From positions 1 to 64,000 of IMG/VR virus record IMGVR_UViG_3300047509_000103: 64,000 nt of DNA; one strand, written 5' to 3'. Source of the DNA: a virus. The translations under genes were made by a program, and so were the position numbers. Shown piece by piece: positions 1,655-22,019 of the stretch. The notes under the pieces are model-generated. The model worked only from the letters and a program-made list of their open reading frames with translations, was not told the origin of the DNA and did not search any database. Numbering within the stretch: the first letter of the stretch is position 1; each line of letters starts with the position of its first letter.

Positions 1655-1861
1655 TCAGAAGAATTCCGGCTTCGCGACTGCGCGGGTGAGTGCCATCAAG
1701 CCCTGTTGCAGGTGCGTGGTGCCGATCGAGATCCACCGCTGGTCATAGTTTGGACCTCCCAAGGCGCCAACCAATTCAGCGAGTTCTTTGCCCGTCTCCT
1801 TGATTCGGTTGATCAGCGCAATTTCTTGCTCGTTCAACTCGCGATAGTGCTGGTTTTCCAT
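1655..1861 (-). CDS. acb2-like: Acb2/Tad1 hairpin-type protein, candidate anti-CBASS
   Basis: This is a 68-residue helical protein. Two blocks match my recollection of Acb2/Tad1 hairpin proteins: YRELNEQEIALINRIKETGK near the N-terminus, and at the C-terminus RW...GTTHLQQGLMALTRAV followed by AKPEFF. Acb2 proteins sequester cyclic di- and trinucleotide signals and so blunt CBASS defence. The ATG at 1861 has a GGAG site at good spacing. The frame is open further upstream, to an ATG at 2002 that lacks a ribosome site. The neighbours are other small early accessory proteins, which suits a counter-defence gene. The assignment rests on remembered family motifs only. Confidence 0.7.
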   Translation of the reverse strand: MENQHYRELNEQEIALINRIKETGKELAELVGALGGPNYDQRWISIGTTHLQQGLMALTRAVAKPEFF

Positions 1862-2345: not shown

Positions 2346-3884
2346 TCAACCCCTCTCTGGTGTATTTTGCTGTTGAATTACGGTGCGTTTTCCTGCGTGG
2401 TCAGGCGCCGACACGACGCCTTGTTCTTCCATCGTTTCGACCAGCTGCGCGGCGCGGTTGTAGCCGATCTTGAACACTCGCTGGACGTAGCTGATCGACA
2501 CCGCGCCAGCTTCGCGCACTGTGGCGATCGCCTTGGGCAGCAAATCGTCCGCTTCGCCGCCGCCAAAAGAAGCCAGCACTTCGCCGGTGTTTCCATCCGA
2601 TACGGTGGCGGTGACGCCCTGCTCCTTGCAGAGCCGGTCCATTTTCTTCACGGCCGCATGCACCTTCGGTGACGCCGCCGGTGCGCTCGGCTCGGTCATC
2701 TCGACTAGAGCGGCGAGGATCCACAACGATGTGTAGCCAGCGTTCTTGCCGTGGTTTTCTTTCGCCAGTGCGATCGCCGCCTCGGTGTCAGTCGTGCCGT
2801 CTTTCTTCGCCCGCTTTGTGATCGCCGCTGCACTGCTGGCCATCGTCTCGTCGAACTTGTGCCCGAGGAATTCGCGCGCGGTCTTCCGTGCCTCGTACAT
2901 CTTGGCAGTGATACCGATCACCTTCTCCCACTTGCCAGTCGTCTCCGCATCCCGCATGTGCTTCGGCGCGTCACCGCCATCGAGCGTGAGCTTCGGCGCC
3001 GCGCTGACCCCGAACGTTGATGCCAGCCAGTCCAGCACGCGCCGCAGCTCGAGCGTCATCAGCGCGAACTGCGAGTCGAACAGTTCCGCGGTGCTCTCGG
3101 CATCGCCGAGTTCGTCCTGCACCACATCCAGGAACCGCACCTTGTGCAGGCACAGCGCCTCGTCGAGTACGAACGAAACCCGATCATCGAACACCAGCGC
3201 CAGGCGAAACACCTGCTTGCCCGATTTCAGGTGCTCGCGCACTTCGTCCGATTCCAAGTCCTGATTCGTGCAGCGGACAACGGCGCCGGTTTCGGCTGGA
3301 TCTCGCAGCTCAATCTGATCACCGAGCACCAGATGCTCAGGCAGCTTGCCGTTGATCACCCAGTCGGTCATCAGCGCGCGCGGTGATTCTTCCGGCGAGA
3401 GCGGCACGCAGGGGAACGAGCCGGCCGCTTCGCGGATCGACGAGATGATGTTCTCGGCAACCTTGCGTGTAGCGTGGTCGATCACCAGCCAACCGTCTTT
3501 CGTGAAATAGGCGTTGGTGCGGCGCGTGCGCACGAACGCCTGCGGCAGCAGTGTGGTGAACACTTCGTCTTTGATGCGCTTGCGTTCTTTCGCGCCGACT
3601 CCCACGCCCGTCGCCGCTTCGATCGCGTCGATTTTGTGCGCCAGCACATCGCGCACCACGTCGGCCGGAAGCAACCTTTCCTGCTGCGCCACGGTGATCA
3701 GTTTGAAGTCGCCGACCACGTGCGTGTATGAGTCATCGAACCCATGCACGGGCGGCACGAAGCCGAACGTCGACAGTTCGAGTGGGCCACAGTCGCGCAA
3801 GGCGTGCTTTGGCAACGCATCGCAGAGCGCGCCCAGATCAATCTCTTGGCCGAAGCGGTAGCAAGTTAGGTTGCGGAAGAACAT
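2346..3884 (-). CDS. rdgC-like: RdgC-like recombination-associated protein fused to an FtsK gamma winged helix
   Basis: This 512-residue protein has two parts. Residues 1 to about 300 match RdgC: MFFRNLTCYRF at the start, then FGFVPPV, an LLPQAFVRT block, WLVIDHATRK, a PLSPEESP block and FDSQFALMTLEL. RdgC is a ring-shaped double-stranded DNA-binding protein that restrains RecA. After a charged linker, about residues 449-505 match the FtsK gamma domain (DDLLPKAIATV, SISYVQRVFKIGYNRAAQLV, MEEQGVV). Gamma is the winged helix that reads KOPS in FtsK. No translocase motor is present. Free bacterial RdgC is about 300 residues, so this is a genuine extension. It belongs to the recombination operon with RecT, exonuclease and SSB. 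Confidence 0.85.
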   Translation of the reverse strand: MFFRNLTCYRFGQEIDLGALCDALPKHALRDCGPLELSTFGFVPPVHGFDDSYTHVVGDFKLITVAQQERLLPADVVRDVLAHKIDAIEAATGVGVGAKERKRIKDEVFTTLLPQAFVRTRRTNAYFTKDGWLVIDHATRKVAENIISSIREAAGSFPCVPLSPEESPRALMTDWVINGKLPEHLVLGDQIELRDPAETGAVVRCTNQDLESDEVREHLKSGKQVFRLALVFDDRVSFVLDEALCLHKVRFLDVVQDELGDAESTAELFDSQFALMTLELRRVLDWLASTFGVSAAPKLTLDGGDAPKHMRDAETTGKWEKVIGITAKMYEARKTAREFLGHKFDETMASSAAAITKRAKKDGTTDTEAAIALAKENHGKNAGYTSLWILAALVEMTEPSAPAASPKVHAAVKKMDRLCKEQGVTATVSDGNTGEVLASFGGGEADDLLPKAIATVREAGAVSISYVQRVFKIGYNRAAQLVETMEEQGVVSAPDHAGKRTVIQQQNTPERG

Positions 3885-8033: not shown

Positions 8034-8498
8034 TCAGAACGGAATTTCGTCGTCGTCGAAACTGTTGGTATCGGACGGCGGCGGTGGAGCGTTTCGGGAG
8101 GATGGAGACGGCTGCGGCCCGCGTGCTGGACCGCGCTCGCGACGTTCACCACTGTCGGGCGTGCTCTTGGTGCCAAGCATTTGCATCACGTCGGCGATAA
8201 CATCCGTCGACCAGCGCTTGATTCCATCTTTCTCGTATTCCTCGGTTCGCAACTTTCCCTCGACATAGACCTGGCCACCTTTTTTCAGGTACTCGCCAGC
8301 GATCTCTGCCAAGCGGCCGAAGAACTTGATCCGATGCCATTCGGTGCGTTCCTGCTGTTCGCCGGTCTGTTTGTCTTTCCACGATTCGGACGTGGCGATG
8401 CGGATCGTCGTGATCGCCGTGCCGCTGGGCGTGTAGCGCGTTTCCGGATCGGCGCCGAGATTGCCCACCAGGATGCATTTATTGATTCCCCTGCTCAT
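8034..8498 (-). CDS. ssb: Single-stranded DNA-binding protein
   Basis: This is a 154-residue SSB. The OB-fold covers residues 1-110 ([20 protein letters not shown], then [30 protein letters not shown] and [11 protein letters not shown]). After a Pro/Arg-rich linker comes the acidic tip DDDEIPF, which recruits partner proteins. It coats single-stranded DNA during replication and RecT-mediated annealing. Its start overlaps the stop of the upstream gene as ATGA, and it lies in the same operon as RecT and the exonuclease. The length is slightly below the usual bacterial 170-180 residues but complete. Confidence 0.95.
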
Positions 8499-9241
8499 GC
8501 GCGTCGCACCGATAGGCCTTTGTCCTCGTACACGCGCACGCCAGGGATTCGCGTGGCACCCTTGAGTGAGCGCACAACGCCACCGATAGCCTGGTTCTCT
8601 TGCAGGTAGCCGAGCAGCGTGTCGTCGCCAGCCTCGGCCGCTTTGCCGGCGGCGATTACCAGCGCCTTGAAGTCGGTCACTTCGTACTTCCAGGTCGAGC
8701 GTGAGCCGATGCCGGCAGCCTTCGGCGCTGCGACCGTCGGCATCGAAACCGGCGCCACTTCGGCGAGCTCGATCGCCTCGCGCGCTGCTTCGACGCCGGC
8801 GACGTCGCCAGACTTCGCCGCCTCGGCTTGCTGCTTTTCGAGCGTTTCACGTGCGGCGCGCGCGATGGCTTCGGCCGCGCGCTTTTCGTCGTCAGCTTTC
8901 TTCTGCTGATCCCGTTGGAAACCGAGCATCGCAGCGCGTAGCGCGTTCTCCGCGTTCGCCATTATCTCATCGGGACCGCGAAACATCTCCATGATGCGCG
9001 ACTTGCTCTCGTCGAGCGGTCGCGTCAGGCTCTTGCGCAATTCCTCCATGTCCTTGCGGCGCGTGGAGATGTTGCGTAGTTCGTCGCCAGCGATGGCATA
9101 CATGTCCTGACTGTCGACGACGATGCTCAGCGCAATCGTGCGCGACTCCGTGGCCATAGCGTTCGCGCGCGCGAGCTCGGGAAGCGACAGCGCGGTTGAG
9201 CCTGGTGCCGGCTCTCCGGCTGGCATAAGTTGTGCGTTCAT
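8495..9241 (-). CDS. Conserved phage recombination-module protein with coiled coil, 248 aa
   Basis: The middle of this protein is a long Ala/Glu/Lys-rich helix (residues about 75-160) that probably forms a coiled coil. The C-terminal domain has [31 protein letters not shown] and the end [13 protein letters not shown] recall this C-terminal pattern from phage proteins encoded next to SSB, RecT and Cas4-like nucleases, usually left as hypothetical. A role with the annealing system is inferred from location only. It is ATGA-coupled on both sides. Confidence 0.75.
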
Positions 9242-9867
9242 TTGTGGTTGGCCTCGAATTGGTGAATGGTCAGCGCGGACAGGAACACGCGCGCGTCGTT
9301 TGGATCCTTGAATGGCACCAGTTGCCAGCGGTCAGGCGTCAGGTGCAGGGCATAGCGATTGATCCGACCGGCGCCAGGCCCGCAGACCGCACTTGCTACC
9401 GCCTCGGGACACGATTCGCGCAGCGCGATTTCGTAGCCCGCCGTTTGTGGCCGTGCGGTACGCGGCACTGCGGCGCAGCGCTTGGTGTCGATGAGCGCCG
9501 CCTCGGCGTTGAGTCGGCCAAAGTTGTCGAGCTTGCCGGCGTAGCCATAGCGTTTCGAGTACACAAGCTGCTCGCAGAGAATCGGCTCGTAGCCAGATGT
9601 CGCGAGGAACTCGCGCCACTGCGCTAGGTACGGTCGCAGCACATCGTCGAGTGCGTCTTCGTCCAGCACATGAGCGGTATCGAGCTCGATCAGCCGGTGC
9701 ACCGCTGTGCCAAGCAGCGCCGCGCGCTCCATTACGTCGCGATCGACACAGGCGTACTCGCGATCTGAAAGCGGCTTGAGCACTTTCGTCACGCTCGGGA
9801 CATCGGTGCCGTCGAGTAGATAGCGGTGGCCATCCTCGATGAATTGGAGTTGCGGCGCCGCGTTCAT
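9238..9867 (-). CDS. PD-(D/E)XK exonuclease (RecB/Cas4-like)
   Basis: This 209-residue nuclease has the RecB-family motifs in order: GTAVHRLIELD (motif with His), GYAGKLDNFGR (Asp of the PD motif), ALIDTKRC (the DxK pair), and QTAGYEIALRE (motif QxxxY). These fit a two-metal 5'-3' double-strand exonuclease. Such an enzyme makes the 3' tails on which the neighbouring RecT protein anneals. It is ATGA-coupled to both recT and the 248-aa gene, which makes an exonuclease-annealase pair very likely. Confidence 0.85.
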   Translation of the reverse strand: MNAAPQLQFIEDGHRYLLDGTDVPSVTKVLKPLSDREYACVDRDVMERAALLGTAVHRLIELDTAHVLDEDALDDVLRPYLAQWREFLATSGYEPILCEQLVYSKRYGYAGKLDNFGRLNAEAALIDTKRCAAVPRTARPQTAGYEIALRESCPEAVASAVCGPGAGRINRYALHLTPDRWQLVPFKDPNDARVFLSALTIHQFEANHK

Positions 9868-10769
9868 GCCGCGTTTGCCTTGTTGTTAGCCATCTCGCGC
9901 AGTTCGGCCAGCACCGCATTGAGATTGCTCAAGTCGATGCGGTGGTACTTCGCGATAAGCGCCTTCTCGTCGAGCCCGACGCTCTGCGCGCGCGCCTTGA
10001 GGATCGCCGCCTGAGAATCGCTCAGGTTGTGCAGACCTTCGGGCAACGTCTTGACATCGACCGCCGGCTTGTCCGCTTCCGGCTTTGCCTTCGCTTTCGG
10101 GTCGCTGAACGTCGCATCTTCGGCGGGCGCCGCGGTCGGTGTTGCTGCCGGCGTCGGTGTCGCAGCAGCTTTCGCCGTCGGCATCTGCACGACTGTTGCT
10201 GTGGCTGTTGCCGGCTCGTCGTCGAACTCGTCTGGCGTGTAGATGCCGAGCAGAGCTTCTGGAGCGTAACGGCGCGCCCATTGGCGCGTGCCGCGGTAGA
10301 CAAGCATGTCCTCGGGAATCTTGTCCCAGGCGTTGTCGACGCGGTTACCTGCCTTGTCCTTCCCGTATGTACGCCACTCTTTGACGGCGCCGGTAACCGT
10401 CTGCGGCTCGCCGTTGCCGCCCCGCGGTACACCAGTGACCTTGATCGAGGCGCCGGCCCCGCTACCAGTGATCTCGTAGTGCAAGCGCCCGTCGATCGCG
10501 CCCATGCTGTAGAGCACTGCGGCGACGAGCTTGCCTTCGTAGCAAAGGCGCTTGTGCACCACGCTCGTGCACTGCGCGACGCTGAGCGCATCCATACCCC
10601 AACGCTGCGCCTGCATCACCACGAGCAGGCAATCGCCTGGCTTGTTTTGCAGGTGCTCCGGTATCAAGCTCGATTTCGCCAGCGTCTCGGCCAGCTGCAC
10701 CGCTTCGGGCACAGAGCGCGGCACGAGTGCCTGCATCGACGTCGTTTGTTGCGTAGCTAGTTCACCCAT
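9864..10769 (-). CDS. recT-like: RecT-family single-strand annealing protein
   Basis: Residues 1-200 match RecT: PRSVPEAVQLAETLAKSSLI, the GMDALSVAQC block, LCYEGKLVAAVL, KEWRTYGKDK and the strongly conserved ARRYAPEALLGIYTPDEFD. Then comes a low-complexity Ala/Thr/Pro linker (about 195-230) and a C-terminal helical tail of about 60 residues (SDSQAAILKARAQSVGLDEK). The tail may contact partner proteins. The protein would pair complementary strands made by the adjacent exonuclease. It begins 19 bases downstream of the second variable repeat, with its ATG at 10769 behind a GGGAGA site. Confidence 0.9.
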   Translation of the reverse strand: MGELATQQTTSMQALVPRSVPEAVQLAETLAKSSLIPEHLQNKPGDCLLVVMQAQRWGMDALSVAQCTSVVHKRLCYEGKLVAAVLYSMGAIDGRLHYEITGSGAGASIKVTGVPRGGNGEPQTVTGAVKEWRTYGKDKAGNRVDNAWDKIPEDMLVYRGTRQWARRYAPEALLGIYTPDEFDDEPATATATVVQMPTAKAAATPTPAATPTAAPAEDATFSDPKAKAKPEADKPAVDVKTLPEGLHNLSDSQAAILKARAQSVGLDEKALIAKYHRIDLSNLNAVLAELREMANNKANAA

Positions 10770-14077: not shown

Positions 14078-14566
14078 ATGGAAAAACCAGCAATGTGGCT
14101 CGACGCGACCTGGATGCAGCGCGGGTTGAGCGCACTACGCAACACCTTGGACGCTGACTCCAAGGATCAGATGATTCAGTTCCTGTTCGACACGGGGCTG
14201 TGGGATCCGGAAATTCTGACTGGCGACGCGGCAATCGCTCGATTCAACTCCGGACTCAACCCCGCAAAAGTCACGGTGAACTTCAAGCTCTGCGAGATCT
14301 GGGCGCTGATGCGCCACTTCGATCGGCACGAACTGTTTCACGTGATGGCGGACGACCTGGGCTACGAGATACGCAAGAAATCCAGCAACGAACGCGTTAT
14401 CGAATCCAATGAGCGACTCGCTCGCGCGATCGAGAATTCCAACCGCCTGCTAGCTGAGGCCGCTGGCGATAAAGCCCGGCTCACCGCACCGCAAACCGTT
14501 TCCCGAATCCACCCTGCCATCCAAGACGGACGCGGTTCGTTTTCGATGGAAGGGAAGGGGTTCTGA
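14078..14566 (+). CDS. Hypothetical protein at the CII position, 162 aa
   Basis: This 162-residue soluble protein starts at ATG 14078 with a GGGGAG ribosome site. The first 100 residues look like a compact helical domain (QMIQFLFDTGLWDPEILTG, LCEIWALMRHFDRHELF, VMADDLGYEIRKK). A Ser/Asn/Ala helical tail follows. It occupies the place of cII-like regulators, directly after the Cro-like gene. I do not recognise a helix-turn-helix in it. Its stop overlaps the methyltransferase start as TGATG. Confidence 0.65.
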   Translation: MEKPAMWLDATWMQRGLSALRNTLDADSKDQMIQFLFDTGLWDPEILTGDAAIARFNSGLNPAKVTVNFKLCEIWALMRHFDRHELFHVMADDLGYEIRKKSSNERVIESNERLARAIENSNRLLAEAAGDKARLTAPQTVSRIHPAIQDGRGSFSMEGKGF

Positions 14567-16380
14567 TGAATCAGAACCGATTCACGTTTCAACACGAGTT
14601 GATCGTCGACCTATTCGCCGGCGGTGGCGGCGCCTCGCTCGGCATCGAGCAAGCCTTCGGGCGGCCGGTCGACATCTGCGTAAACCACGACGCCGACGCG
14701 GTCGCGATGCACGCTGCGAATCACCCTGGCACCGAGCACCTGCGCTGCGATGTGTTCGAGGTTGATCCGATCAAAGCCACCGGCGGCCGCCAGATCGGCC
14801 TGCTCTGGGCATCGCCGGATTGCAAACACTTCAGCAAGGCCAAAGGCGGCAAGCCGCGCTCGAAGAAAATCCGCTCACTGGCATGGGTCGTAGTGAAGTG
14901 GGCCGACGTGGTTCGCCCGCGCATGATCATGCTGGAGAACGTGGAAGAGTTCGTCACGTGGGGCCCGCTGGGCAAGAACGGCCAGCCCTGCCCGAATCGC
15001 AAGGGTGCCACATTCAACCGCTGGGTCGCGAAGCTGCGCAAGCTGGGCTACAAGGTCGAATGGAATAACCTGCGCGCCTGCGACTACGGTGCGCCGACGA
15101 TCAGGAACCGATTCTTCCTGATCGCCCGCTGCGATGGTCTGCCGATCACCTGGCCAACGCCGACGCACCGCAAGCCGGATAGCGTCGCGGTCAAATCCGG
15201 GAAGCTGCTGCCGTGGCGCACGGCTGCTGAGTGCATCGACTTCACGCTGCCGACCCCGTCGATATTCCTGAGCAAAGACGAGGCCCGCGCGCTGGGCGTC
15301 AAGCGCCCGCTGGCGGAAGCCACCATGAAGCGCATCGCCAAGGGCATCGACAGGTTCGTGCTCAACGCGGCGAAACCATTCATCGTTCCGATTCAGAACT
15401 ACGGATGGGGCGATCGGTGCGCTAGCGTCGACGACCCAATGCGCACAGTCACCGCCGGGCCGAAGGGCGGCGCGTTCGCGCTGGCCGCGCCGACGCTGAT
15501 CCAAACCGGATACGGCGAGCGTGAAGGGCAAGCGCCTCGCGCGCCGGGGCTCGATGTTCCGCTCGGTACCGTGGTCGCTGGCGGCTGCAAACACGCGCTG
15601 GTGGCGGCAGCGATTGATCGACAGTTCGGCAAGTCGATGGGCAACGCGGCCGATGCGCCACTTGGCGCTACGACAGCCGGCGGACAAGGCAAGAGCGCAC
15701 TGGTCTCTGCCTTCCTTACGAAGTACAGGCCTGACAGCGCCGGCGCCGATGCGCAAGCGCCATTCCCCACGATCACCGCGAATGGCGAAAGCGATCGGCC
15801 CGGCGGAAATCCACCGCTGGCAGTCATCGCCGTGCACCTGGATCAAGCAAACGCCGGTTTCTACGACGGCGCTGGTCGCACGGTTGACGCGCCTGCAGCC
15901 ACTGTCTGCGCGCAAGGGAGCATGCAGCGGCTGGTCAGTTCCACGCTGGTCAAGCTCCGCGGCACCAGCAACACGGCCGATATCGAAACACCGCTGCACA
16001 CCGTCAGCGCGCAAGGCTTCCACCACGCCGAGGTGCGCGCATTCCTGATCAAGTTCTACAGCGAGGGCGGACAGCACGCGGCTTGCGGCGACCCGATGCA
16101 CACCGTCCCGACGCGCGACCGCATGGGGCTCGTCACGGTGGATGGATCTGACTACGCGATCGCCGACATTGGCCTGCGGATGCTGACACCGCGCGAACTG
16201 TTCCGCGCCCAGGGATTCCCGGAGAGCTACATCATCGATCGCGGTGTCGGCGGACGAAAGCTGCCGAAGGACGCGCAGGTGCGCATGTGCGGCAACAGCG
16301 TCTGCCCGCCACTGGCGCGCGCGCTGGTCGCGGCGAACGTGGGCGAGGTCGAACGGGCCTGGACGGAGCAAGCCGCATGA
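14566..16380 (+). CDS. DNA cytosine-5 methyltransferase with repeat-rich target region
   Basis: This is a 604-residue Dcm-like enzyme. Motif I is DLFAGGGGASLG (about residues 15-26), motif IV with the catalytic Cys is SPDCKHFSKAKGG (about 83-95), motif VI is LENVEEF, motif VIII is PTIRNRFFLIA, and motifs IX-X end in MCGNSVCPPLA. The active site reads P-D-C where classical enzymes have P-C-Q, a form I recall from other phage enzymes. Between about residues 285 and 540 there are seven imperfect repeats of the type DxPxxTVxAxG...LV, which likely form the target-recognition region. The enzyme would modify phage DNA against host restriction. It overlaps DUF4031 as ATGA. Confidence 0.9.
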   Translation: MNQNRFTFQHELIVDLFAGGGGASLGIEQAFGRPVDICVNHDADAVAMHAANHPGTEHLRCDVFEVDPIKATGGRQIGLLWASPDCKHFSKAKGGKPRSKKIRSLAWVVVKWADVVRPRMIMLENVEEFVTWGPLGKNGQPCPNRKGATFNRWVAKLRKLGYKVEWNNLRACDYGAPTIRNRFFLIARCDGLPITWPTPTHRKPDSVAVKSGKLLPWRTAAECIDFTLPTPSIFLSKDEARALGVKRPLAEATMKRIAKGIDRFVLNAAKPFIVPIQNYGWGDRCASVDDPMRTVTAGPKGGAFALAAPTLIQTGYGEREGQAPRAPGLDVPLGTVVAGGCKHALVAAAIDRQFGKSMGNAADAPLGATTAGGQGKSALVSAFLTKYRPDSAGADAQAPFPTITANGESDRPGGNPPLAVIAVHLDQANAGFYDGAGRTVDAPAATVCAQGSMQRLVSSTLVKLRGTSNTADIETPLHTVSAQGFHHAEVRAFLIKFYSEGGQHAACGDPMHTVPTRDRMGLVTVDGSDYAIADIGLRMLTPRELFRAQGFPESYIIDRGVGGRKLPKDAQVRMCGNSVCPPLARALVAANVGEVERAWTEQAA

Positions 16381-20149: not shown

Positions 20150-20601
20150 CGGACGAAAGGAAAGTCGATTCGCTTGGCCGATCGTATATCAGCCGAAAGA
20201 AGTTGCGACCTTGCGCTCAGTGCGGCGACCAGATTAAACGCAAGGGCACCGCCGTTAAGTATTGCTCGCGTAAATGCTACGGCACCGCGGCTGCTGGCGT
20301 CCCGAAACCACCTGAACAGGTAGCGGCCAGACAGGTTCCGCGCGGCGACAAGCATTGGGCTTGGAGTGGTGCGTCTGTTAGTGAAAAGGGCGGCAGAGCA
20401 CGCGCGCTTAGGCAGTACCGAAGCGCTGGCCGTTGTTCGCGTTGCGCCGCCACGCGCGGCGAGCGGCACCACAAAGACGGGAACACCGCGAACAACGACA
20501 CGTCGAACGTCGAGATCCTGTGTCGCCGTTGCCACATGGAGGTGGACGGTCGTCTCGCACTGCTGATTGCTAACCCAGGCAAAGGGTGTGTATGTCCGTG
20601 A
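20146..20601 (+). CDS. HNH endonuclease with zinc ribbon
   Basis: This 151-residue protein has an N-terminal zinc-binding part (CAQCGDQIKRKG, YCSRKCYG) and a C-terminal HNH domain (RCSRCAATRGERHHKDGNTA, then NVEILCRRCHMEVDG). The His-His-Lys-Asp-Gly and Cys-x2-Cys pairs are complete. This type is typical of phage homing-like nucleases. GTG at 20146 is chosen from the GTGA overlap. It lies between the SNF2 helicase and a methyltransferase. Confidence 0.85.
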   Translation: MTDERKVDSLGRSYISRKKLRPCAQCGDQIKRKGTAVKYCSRKCYGTAAAGVPKPPEQVAARQVPRGDKHWAWSGASVSEKGGRARALRQYRSAGRCSRCAATRGERHHKDGNTANNDTSNVEILCRRCHMEVDGRLALLIANPGKGCVCP

Positions 20602-22019
20602 AGATACTTACGGGCGATTGCCGCCAGGTGCTGGCCACGCTGCCAGCCGAGAGCGTGCACAGCATCGTGACCGACCCGCCGTACGGCATCGGGTTCATGG
20701 GCAAGGAGTGGGACCATAAGAACATCGTGGCGCGTGCCAAGCAACGCGCCGGCCACGCGCAGCCAAAGCATCGCAACGGCACCGAGCGCACAGCGCCTAG
20801 GCGAGCGCTCGCCGAAGAAGCTGGCGCATACGACCTCTCGCCAGCAGCGATGCGCGCTTTTCAAAGCTGGACTGCTGAATGGGCAGCGCAAGCGATTCGT
20901 GTGCTGAAGCCTGGCGGCATCGTTCTCTGCTTTGCTTCGACCAGGACGTATCACCGTATGGCCTGCGGTCTTGAGGACGCCGGTTTCGAGGTGTTCGATC
21001 AAATTGGCTGGCTGTTCGGGTCCGGCTTCCCGAAAAACCACGACTTCGCGAAAGATCAGGAGGCGAGCAAAGCTGCCGGTGCGCGCGTCATCAAAGCGGA
21101 ATTCACCGGGCACCAGATGGCCGTTGGCTTTGGTACCGCACTGAAACCGGGATGGGAGCCGATCGCCGTCGCGCGCAAGCCCATCAGCGGCACGTATGCA
21201 GAGAACGTTCTATTGCACGGTTGCGGCGCGCTGAATATCGACGGATGCCGAGTGGAGACAGAAGACCATATTGGCGGCGGTGCCTATTCGGCGAACGGGA
21301 ACCGAAACGTATCTGGATCGTTGTCACCAACTGGAATGAATCGCGCTGGCGCGACCGCTGCGCAAGAGTTCGTCCAGCCGAAAGGCCGGTGGCCAGCAAA
21401 CGTTGTGCACGACGGTAGTGATGAAGTTCTCGCCGCTTTTCCGAGTGTTGCCAGCGGCATACCCAGCGGCACCAAAGCCGGTAACAACAACAACGTTTTC
21501 GGTCAGTTTGCCGGCGGTATTCCGGTGACAGGCTACGGAGACGCCGGCAGCGCCGCGCGTTTCTACTATTGCGCCAAAGCTAGCAAGGCTGATCGCGAAG
21601 CCGGTTGCGATGGTCTTCCGACCAAACGCGGCGGGATGGTGAGCAATACCAGCGGCCAGCACATGACGCGGCGGGATGGTGGCGAGCCAGGCCAGCGCGC
21701 CAATCACCACCCCACGGTCAAACCCACCGAGTTGATGCGCTGGCTTGTGCGGCTCGTCACGCCACCGGGGGGGGCAGTGCTCGATCCATTCCTTGGTTCG
21801 GGCAGCACGGCGCGCGCGGCGAGCATCGATGGCTTCGACTGCATAGGCATCGAGCTGGACCCGGAATACGTGGCGATTGCCAAGCATCGGGTGAGCGGCG
21901 ACGCGCCGCTATTCGCCGATCACGCAGCCAGCGGCAGCGCCGGCAGCACCACAACAGCCAGTGCCTCATCCTCAAGCGATGGGTCGCCAGAGACCAGTTC
22001 GAGGTCGGCGCCGACATGA
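20592..22019 (+). CDS. N4/N6 DNA methyltransferase
   Basis: This 475-residue enzyme has the catalytic motif IV TDPPYGIGF near residue 30. Motif I is near the C-terminus (LDPFLGSGSTARAA, then FDCIGIELDPEY), which is the order of beta-class amino methyltransferases. ATG at 20592 follows AAAGGG and sits 10 bases inside the HNH gene. The long middle part (about 130-330) carries the target-recognition region. The C-terminus is a Ser/Thr-rich tail. It would methylate adenine N6 or cytosine N4 and, with the C5 enzyme, gives the phage two DNA modifications. Confidence 0.9.
   Translation: MSVKILTGDCRQVLATLPAESVHSIVTDPPYGIGFMGKEWDHKNIVARAKQRAGHAQPKHRNGTERTAPRRALAEEAGAYDLSPAAMRAFQSWTAEWAAQAIRVLKPGGIVLCFASTRTYHRMACGLEDAGFEVFDQIGWLFGSGFPKNHDFAKDQEASKAAGARVIKAEFTGHQMAVGFGTALKPGWEPIAVARKPISGTYAENVLLHGCGALNIDGCRVETEDHIGGGAYSANGNRNVSGSLSPTGMNRAGATAAQEFVQPKGRWPANVVHDGSDEVLAAFPSVASGIPSGTKAGNNNNVFGQFAGGIPVTGYGDAGSAARFYYCAKASKADREAGCDGLPTKRGGMVSNTSGQHMTRRDGGEPGQRANHHPTVKPTELMRWLVRLVTPPGGAVLDPFLGSGSTARAASIDGFDCIGIELDPEYVAIAKHRVSGDAPLFADHAASGSAGSTTTASASSSSDGSPETSSRSAPT

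Follow-up and report, generated by a model that had tools for sequence, protein, structure and literature searches.

To our knowledge, the principle by which a gamma domain sets the place where a protein is loaded onto DNA has so far been known for the FtsK/SpoIIIE pump only. In Escherichia coli, the reading of KOPS by gamma requires residues N1296, R1300, and E1303 (PMC2533119). Contacts with XerD are made by Q1288, R1289, R1292, I1293, G1294, and N1296 and form a subset of the DNA contacts of the domain, and residues 1289-1297 by themselves suffice to activate XerD (PMC5052618). Dimers of RdgC are ring-shaped and likewise bind DNA without specificity (PMC11077077), and GapR is a tetrameric ring with non-specific DNA binding in its channel (PMC6853979).

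The window, which is the whole stretch of 64,000 nucleotides analyzed here, is part of an IMG/VR record of 80,857 bases. In one of its open frames, on the minus strand (2346-3884, ATG start, 512 aa), RdgC and an FtsK gamma domain are fused, as indicated by the open frame, Pfam, and PDB sequence matches (RdgC: 2owy and 2owl; FtsK gamma: 2j5p, 2ve8, and 5dcf). The RdgC ring domain covers residues 1-292 (3009-3884, minus strand; PF04381, 2e-93, and E 1.3e-95) with a full-length Pfam match of 313 bits against a cut-off of 25, and the gamma winged-helix domain covers residues 444-503 (2376-2555, minus strand; PF09397, 1.9e-22 and 6.8e-25) where the match scores 79.2 bits (cut-off 30.6) and takes in 60 of the 63 positions. 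NCBIfam agreed on RdgC and confined the FtsK match to residues 407-504. The RecA-fold motor domain expected of an FtsK/SpoIIIE translocase gave no hit in the protein with either Pfam or NCBIfam. Between the two domains lies an unnamed all-helical domain (about residues 305-421; 2622-2972, minus strand), which gave no match in a PDB sequence search and is common to a distant RdgC-gamma clade (L042-L050, L062, and L063; blastp, E down to 3e-9); present in two distant RdgC clades, this middle domain may also have been exchanged. The first-pass annotation, which had read the gene as phage RdgC joined to a genuine gamma domain, was thus borne out by profile and structure comparison of the C-terminal part, and its limits for that part (440-512) were nearly right, but it missed the helical domain and the recurrence of the fusion.

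An AlphaFold2 model of the protein, built from 40 relatives, reached a mean pLDDT of 86 and a pTM of 0.61, with a confidence of 92-96 in the gamma region and helices predicted at residues 319-421. When the model was compared by Foldseek, its RdgC part had the toroidal fold of 2owy and 2owl (TMt 0.90-0.92; rmsd 1.6 A for 2owy), and its gamma part superposed on the winged helix of KOPS-bound gamma in 2ve8 and 2ve9, the latter from P. aeruginosa (about 60 residues aligned with rmsd 0.6-1.8 A, the closest superpositions at 0.7-1.1 A; TMt up to 0.93). The linkers on either side of the helical domain (residues 298-320 and 423-443) have pLDDT below 50, so that the model does not fix where gamma sits with respect to the ring, and these low-confidence linkers suggest that the tail is flexibly attached.

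The record belongs to a tailed phage, in which terminase, portal, and major head protein were found, and the closest portals are those of Acidovorax phage AP1 and Pseudomonas KPP25-like phages. The minus strand also encodes, upstream of the fusion, a RecT-like annealing protein (9864-10769; phrog_561, 2.3e-51; PF03837, 5.8e-12) and two exonucleases (9238-9867; phrog_298, 1.9e-26, and 8495-9241; phrog_10477, 9.1e-25), and a recombination-module setting with SSB, RecT, and nuclease genes is also seen elsewhere in the RdgC-gamma family. In the RdgC tree, the domains closest to that of the window came from the viral contig L086, Rhodanobacter plasmids, and Vulcaniibacterium, which suggests a host in the Lysobacterales. 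Directly downstream of the fusion gene, an Acb2/Tad1 hairpin protein (1655-1861, minus strand; PF24729, 7.6e-18) is likely a sponge for CBASS/Thoeris signal molecules. The phage also encodes two DNA methyltransferases (14566-16380 and 20586-22019 (+)), and an open frame of 3093 aa occurs in the remainder of the record (L003, 2421-11702).

RdgC-gamma proteins were found by tblastn in phages of Pseudomonas (Hollowayvirus), Vibrio, and Pararheinheimera, and on plasmids of Rhodanobacter, Pseudomonas, and Vogesella. A scan of IMG/VR with the pattern QRx[FL][KR]IG[YV]N, which makes the set biased at those positions, gave 80 loci, nearly all with RdgC and gamma in one frame; searches of viral contigs with the whole window protein or the RdgC part alone gave no matches. 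A quick tree built from 72 RdgC domains, in which some branches are long, requires 13 changes of the tail, and at least 9 of these are forced by supported branches. The gamma tail is rare on chromosomes, since a second gamma was listed in 5 of the 263 genomes with a match, among the matches listed in a class-wide FtsK scan. Recent capture of the tail from a host FtsK was rejected, as the window gamma is at most 62% identical to the FtsK domains compared; it is at best 60% identical to other fused gamma domains, and no recent source was seen among the FtsK and fused domains compared. The family also presents an annotation problem, because some RdgC-gamma proteins are named DNA translocase FtsK. 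At L036 (5001-6161), for example, the frame is a full RdgC-gamma and the annotation under that name covers the gamma end only, and on a Pseudomonas putida plasmid (L039, 5001-6166) RdgC and gamma lie in two overlapping frames, a frameshift or pseudogene, of which the gamma piece bears the same name.

The same tail was observed on other proteins. Over 914 bp of rdgC, Pseudomonas phages BR228a and H66 are 98.5% identical, after which BR228a continues into the gamma tail, whereas H66 has a stop codon followed by a gene for NdpA, a nucleoid-associated protein. Because the two genomes rejoin 43 bp ahead of the stop codon, NdpA of H66 ends with DGSREVLS, which is the end of gamma. Among H66-like loci, NdpA was the neighbour in none with gamma on RdgC and in 14 without it. 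NdpA-gamma fusions were present at L190 and L193 (H66-like loci) and at L068 (from the other scan), and Pseudomonas plasmids match NdpA-gamma across 99% of its length (tblastn coverage). Rhodobacter phage RcDormio encodes a protein in which GapR follows two gamma domains, and a diverged gamma-GapR protein (35% identity) occurs in Ruegeria phage 45A6; GapR-gamma had no match in IMG/VR. Gamma also occurs in mid-protein in unnamed proteins adjoining RecT and a PD-(D/E)XK nuclease in Pseudomonas phages phi297 (L023, 3009-3980) and YMC11/07/P54 (L025, 3036-3968), and gp40 of a Vibrio phage (L030, 3372-3689, 105 aa) is a stand-alone gamma protein. Judged from these sequences, gamma is a shuffled tail on nucleoid and DNA-ring proteins of mobile elements. 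Both domains of the window protein are known and their combination is already in databases; of greater interest is the recurrence of gamma on RdgC, NdpA, and GapR. Searches of open-licence full texts turned up no publication that connects RdgC to FtsK gamma or describes the reuse of the tail.

Repeated use of gamma on RdgC, NdpA, and GapR suggests that phages employ it as a targeting part. The reading that we favour, although we would put it at somewhat below even chances, is that the tail tethers or loads the RdgC ring on duplex DNA, with a preference that is looser or changed in the window protein. RdgC and GapR rings would by themselves settle on DNA without sequence preference, and one gamma tail per subunit could bias where, or which way round, the ring settles on double-stranded DNA, by analogy with gamma setting the loading place of FtsK hexamers. 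Within a recombination module (RecT and exonucleases here, SSB in the wider family), RdgC might thus be placed to restrain host RecA, or the placement might protect phage duplex or annealed intermediates. A wider version, in which gamma is a mobile reader tail that sets where, or in which direction, non-specific clamps (RdgC, NdpA, GapR) sit on DNA, we hold more doubtfully; NdpA counts against tethering or loading as a general account, being a nucleoid protein whose ring form is not established here.

The recognition surface of the window gamma (residues 468-483; 2436-2483, minus strand) was compared by alignment with the residues whose roles are described in PMC2533119 and PMC5052618. Q468 and R469 correspond to 1288 and 1289, and K472, I473, G474, Y475, N476, and R477 to 1292-1297. 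Of the three residues needed for KOPS reading, N476 (N1296) and E483 (E1303) are retained and R1300 is replaced by Q480, which counts against tethering or loading and against targeting to KOPS, and the preference of this protein would probably be looser than, or different from, GGGNAGGG. Every XerD-contact position is retained, with R1292 as K, and the activation patch RQFRIGYNR reads RVFKIGYNR. With this patch intact, the suggestion of the first-pass annotation that host XerCD is restrained may still hold. Because these positions are kept, the main rival, ahead of a decoy of host FtsK, is that the tail is a handle for host XerD, by which RdgC-gamma would recruit, activate, or sequester this recombinase, for example in resolving phage or plasmid DNA multimers or in disturbing host dimer resolution; we regard this as fairly improbable. 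In its favour, Q1288, R1289, G1294, and N1296 are invariant (100%) across the 15 fused domains that tblastn found, whereas R1300, which serves KOPS only, varies; the larger fused set is no evidence for it because the search pattern fixes these residues. The same residues face DNA in FtsK gamma, and since the two surfaces overlap, DNA reading and XerD binding are inseparable by sequence or conservation. Against the XerD handle, R1292 is G and R1297 is A in the GapR-gamma proteins.

The sites on which XerD would act point the same way. The first-pass annotation had suggested a target near dif, and for this phage the suggestion found no footing: the 80.9-kb record, which is possibly incomplete, yielded neither a dif-like site nor a tyrosine integrase and does not look like that of a Xer activation factor or a dif-using element, and dif-like sites with at most 2 mismatches were present in 4 of 56 fusion-carrying elements. 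In favour of the XerD handle, one of these four, the 114-kb Pseudomonas plasmid CP018759 (L035), has a perfect dif-like core, CGCATAATACCGATTATGTTAA, at 64437-64458, with the RdgC-gamma gene about 6 kb away.

A further alternative, to which we give about the same low probability as to the XerD handle, is that the tail acts as a generic winged helix, adding non-specific DNA affinity or autoregulation without a sequence target. The drift of two residues in fused domains is consistent with it: after dereplication, position 1300 holds R in 95% of 41 FtsK domains (taken from high-scoring matches, so that conservation is somewhat inflated), 86% of the 15 fused domains from tblastn, and 71% of all 52 fused domains, and position 1303 holds E in 97%, 86%, and 84% of the same sets, respectively. 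R1300 is therefore missing from about 29% of dereplicated fused domains as against 5% of FtsK domains, a loss that also counts against tethering or loading; the asymmetry is modest, with kinship uncorrected. The repeated gain or loss of the tail and phage genomes without motif signal would also fit a generic winged helix. Most of the DNA-facing surface is nevertheless retained in fused domains, strongly so at the four positions invariant in the tblastn set, and one specific domain has been reused on three unrelated partners, both of which argue against a generic winged helix and are in keeping with tethering or loading. A role as decoy for host FtsK or as its inhibitor, in which the tail would compete for KOPS or XerD and block segregation or division during infection, is very unlikely: stand-alone gamma proteins such as gp40 in Vibrio phages would suit it, but a decoy does not need fusion to RdgC, NdpA, or GapR, and R1300Q would be expected to weaken a decoy for KOPS.

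KOPS counts gave the tethering or loading reading no help. Polar KOPS had been proposed as the target, and counting of the octamers in the phage genome was suggested with it; GGGNAGGG occurs at 9 sites in the 80.9-kb record, where about 5.5 would be expected, with a strand split of 6/3 (6/2 for the reversed control), and neither excess nor polarity was thus found in this record. Across phages with gamma, the majority-strand fraction of KOPS was 0.891 against a composition-matched mean of 0.727, and it was 0.756 in RdgC phages without gamma on RdgC (0.885 in their NdpA subset) and 0.854 in P2-like control prophages, in which gamma was absent in 45 of 45. KOPS polarity was accordingly discarded as a sign of gamma function, because gamma-less P2-like prophages show it too and the family hardly exceeds them; it is a general property of such prophages. 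Polarity was 0.94 where R1300 is retained and 0.83 where it is lost, a weak difference with kinship uncorrected. Plasmid CP018759 has KOPS at 8/34 by strand. Work on Salmonella and E. coli, as cited in PMC5993296, had already reported KOPS polarity of prophages.

Nature thus offers RdgC rings that carry a reader whose DNA complex has been solved beside near-identical rings without the tail, as in the Hollowayvirus pair at 98.5% identity. Because such rings with and without gamma exist, the in vivo DNA target of RdgC can be tested by a single deletion.

Compared with known systems, the window protein shares the full ring domain (42% identity in the 2owy structural match) and the recombination setting with RdgC of E. 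coli and P. aeruginosa (2owl, 2owy), but cellular RdgC ends at about 300 aa, whereas the window protein continues for another 220 residues with the helical domain and gamma. XafT, the Xer activation factor of the TLC-phi satellite phage, can act on XerD in place of FtsK, whereas the window phage record lacks dif or an integration context. Lambda RexA is likewise a phage protein with an RdgC-like fold and non-specific DNA binding, but it is a structural rather than a sequence relative and has no gamma domain (PMC11077077). Gamma of FtsK/SpoIIIE (2j5p, 2ve8, 2ve9, 5dcf) has the same fold and most of the same DNA and XerD surface, but in the window protein it is attached to RdgC in place of the FtsK motor and has Q at R1300. 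RdgC-gamma of Hollowayvirus and Vibrio phages, annotated as RdgC, exonuclease recombination-associated, or DNA translocase FtsK, has the same two-domain order, but in most of these proteins R1300 is retained and the helical middle domain is absent. NdpA (NA37)-gamma of phages and plasmids and GapR-gamma of phages, in which gamma precedes GapR, carry the same tail on unrelated partner domains.
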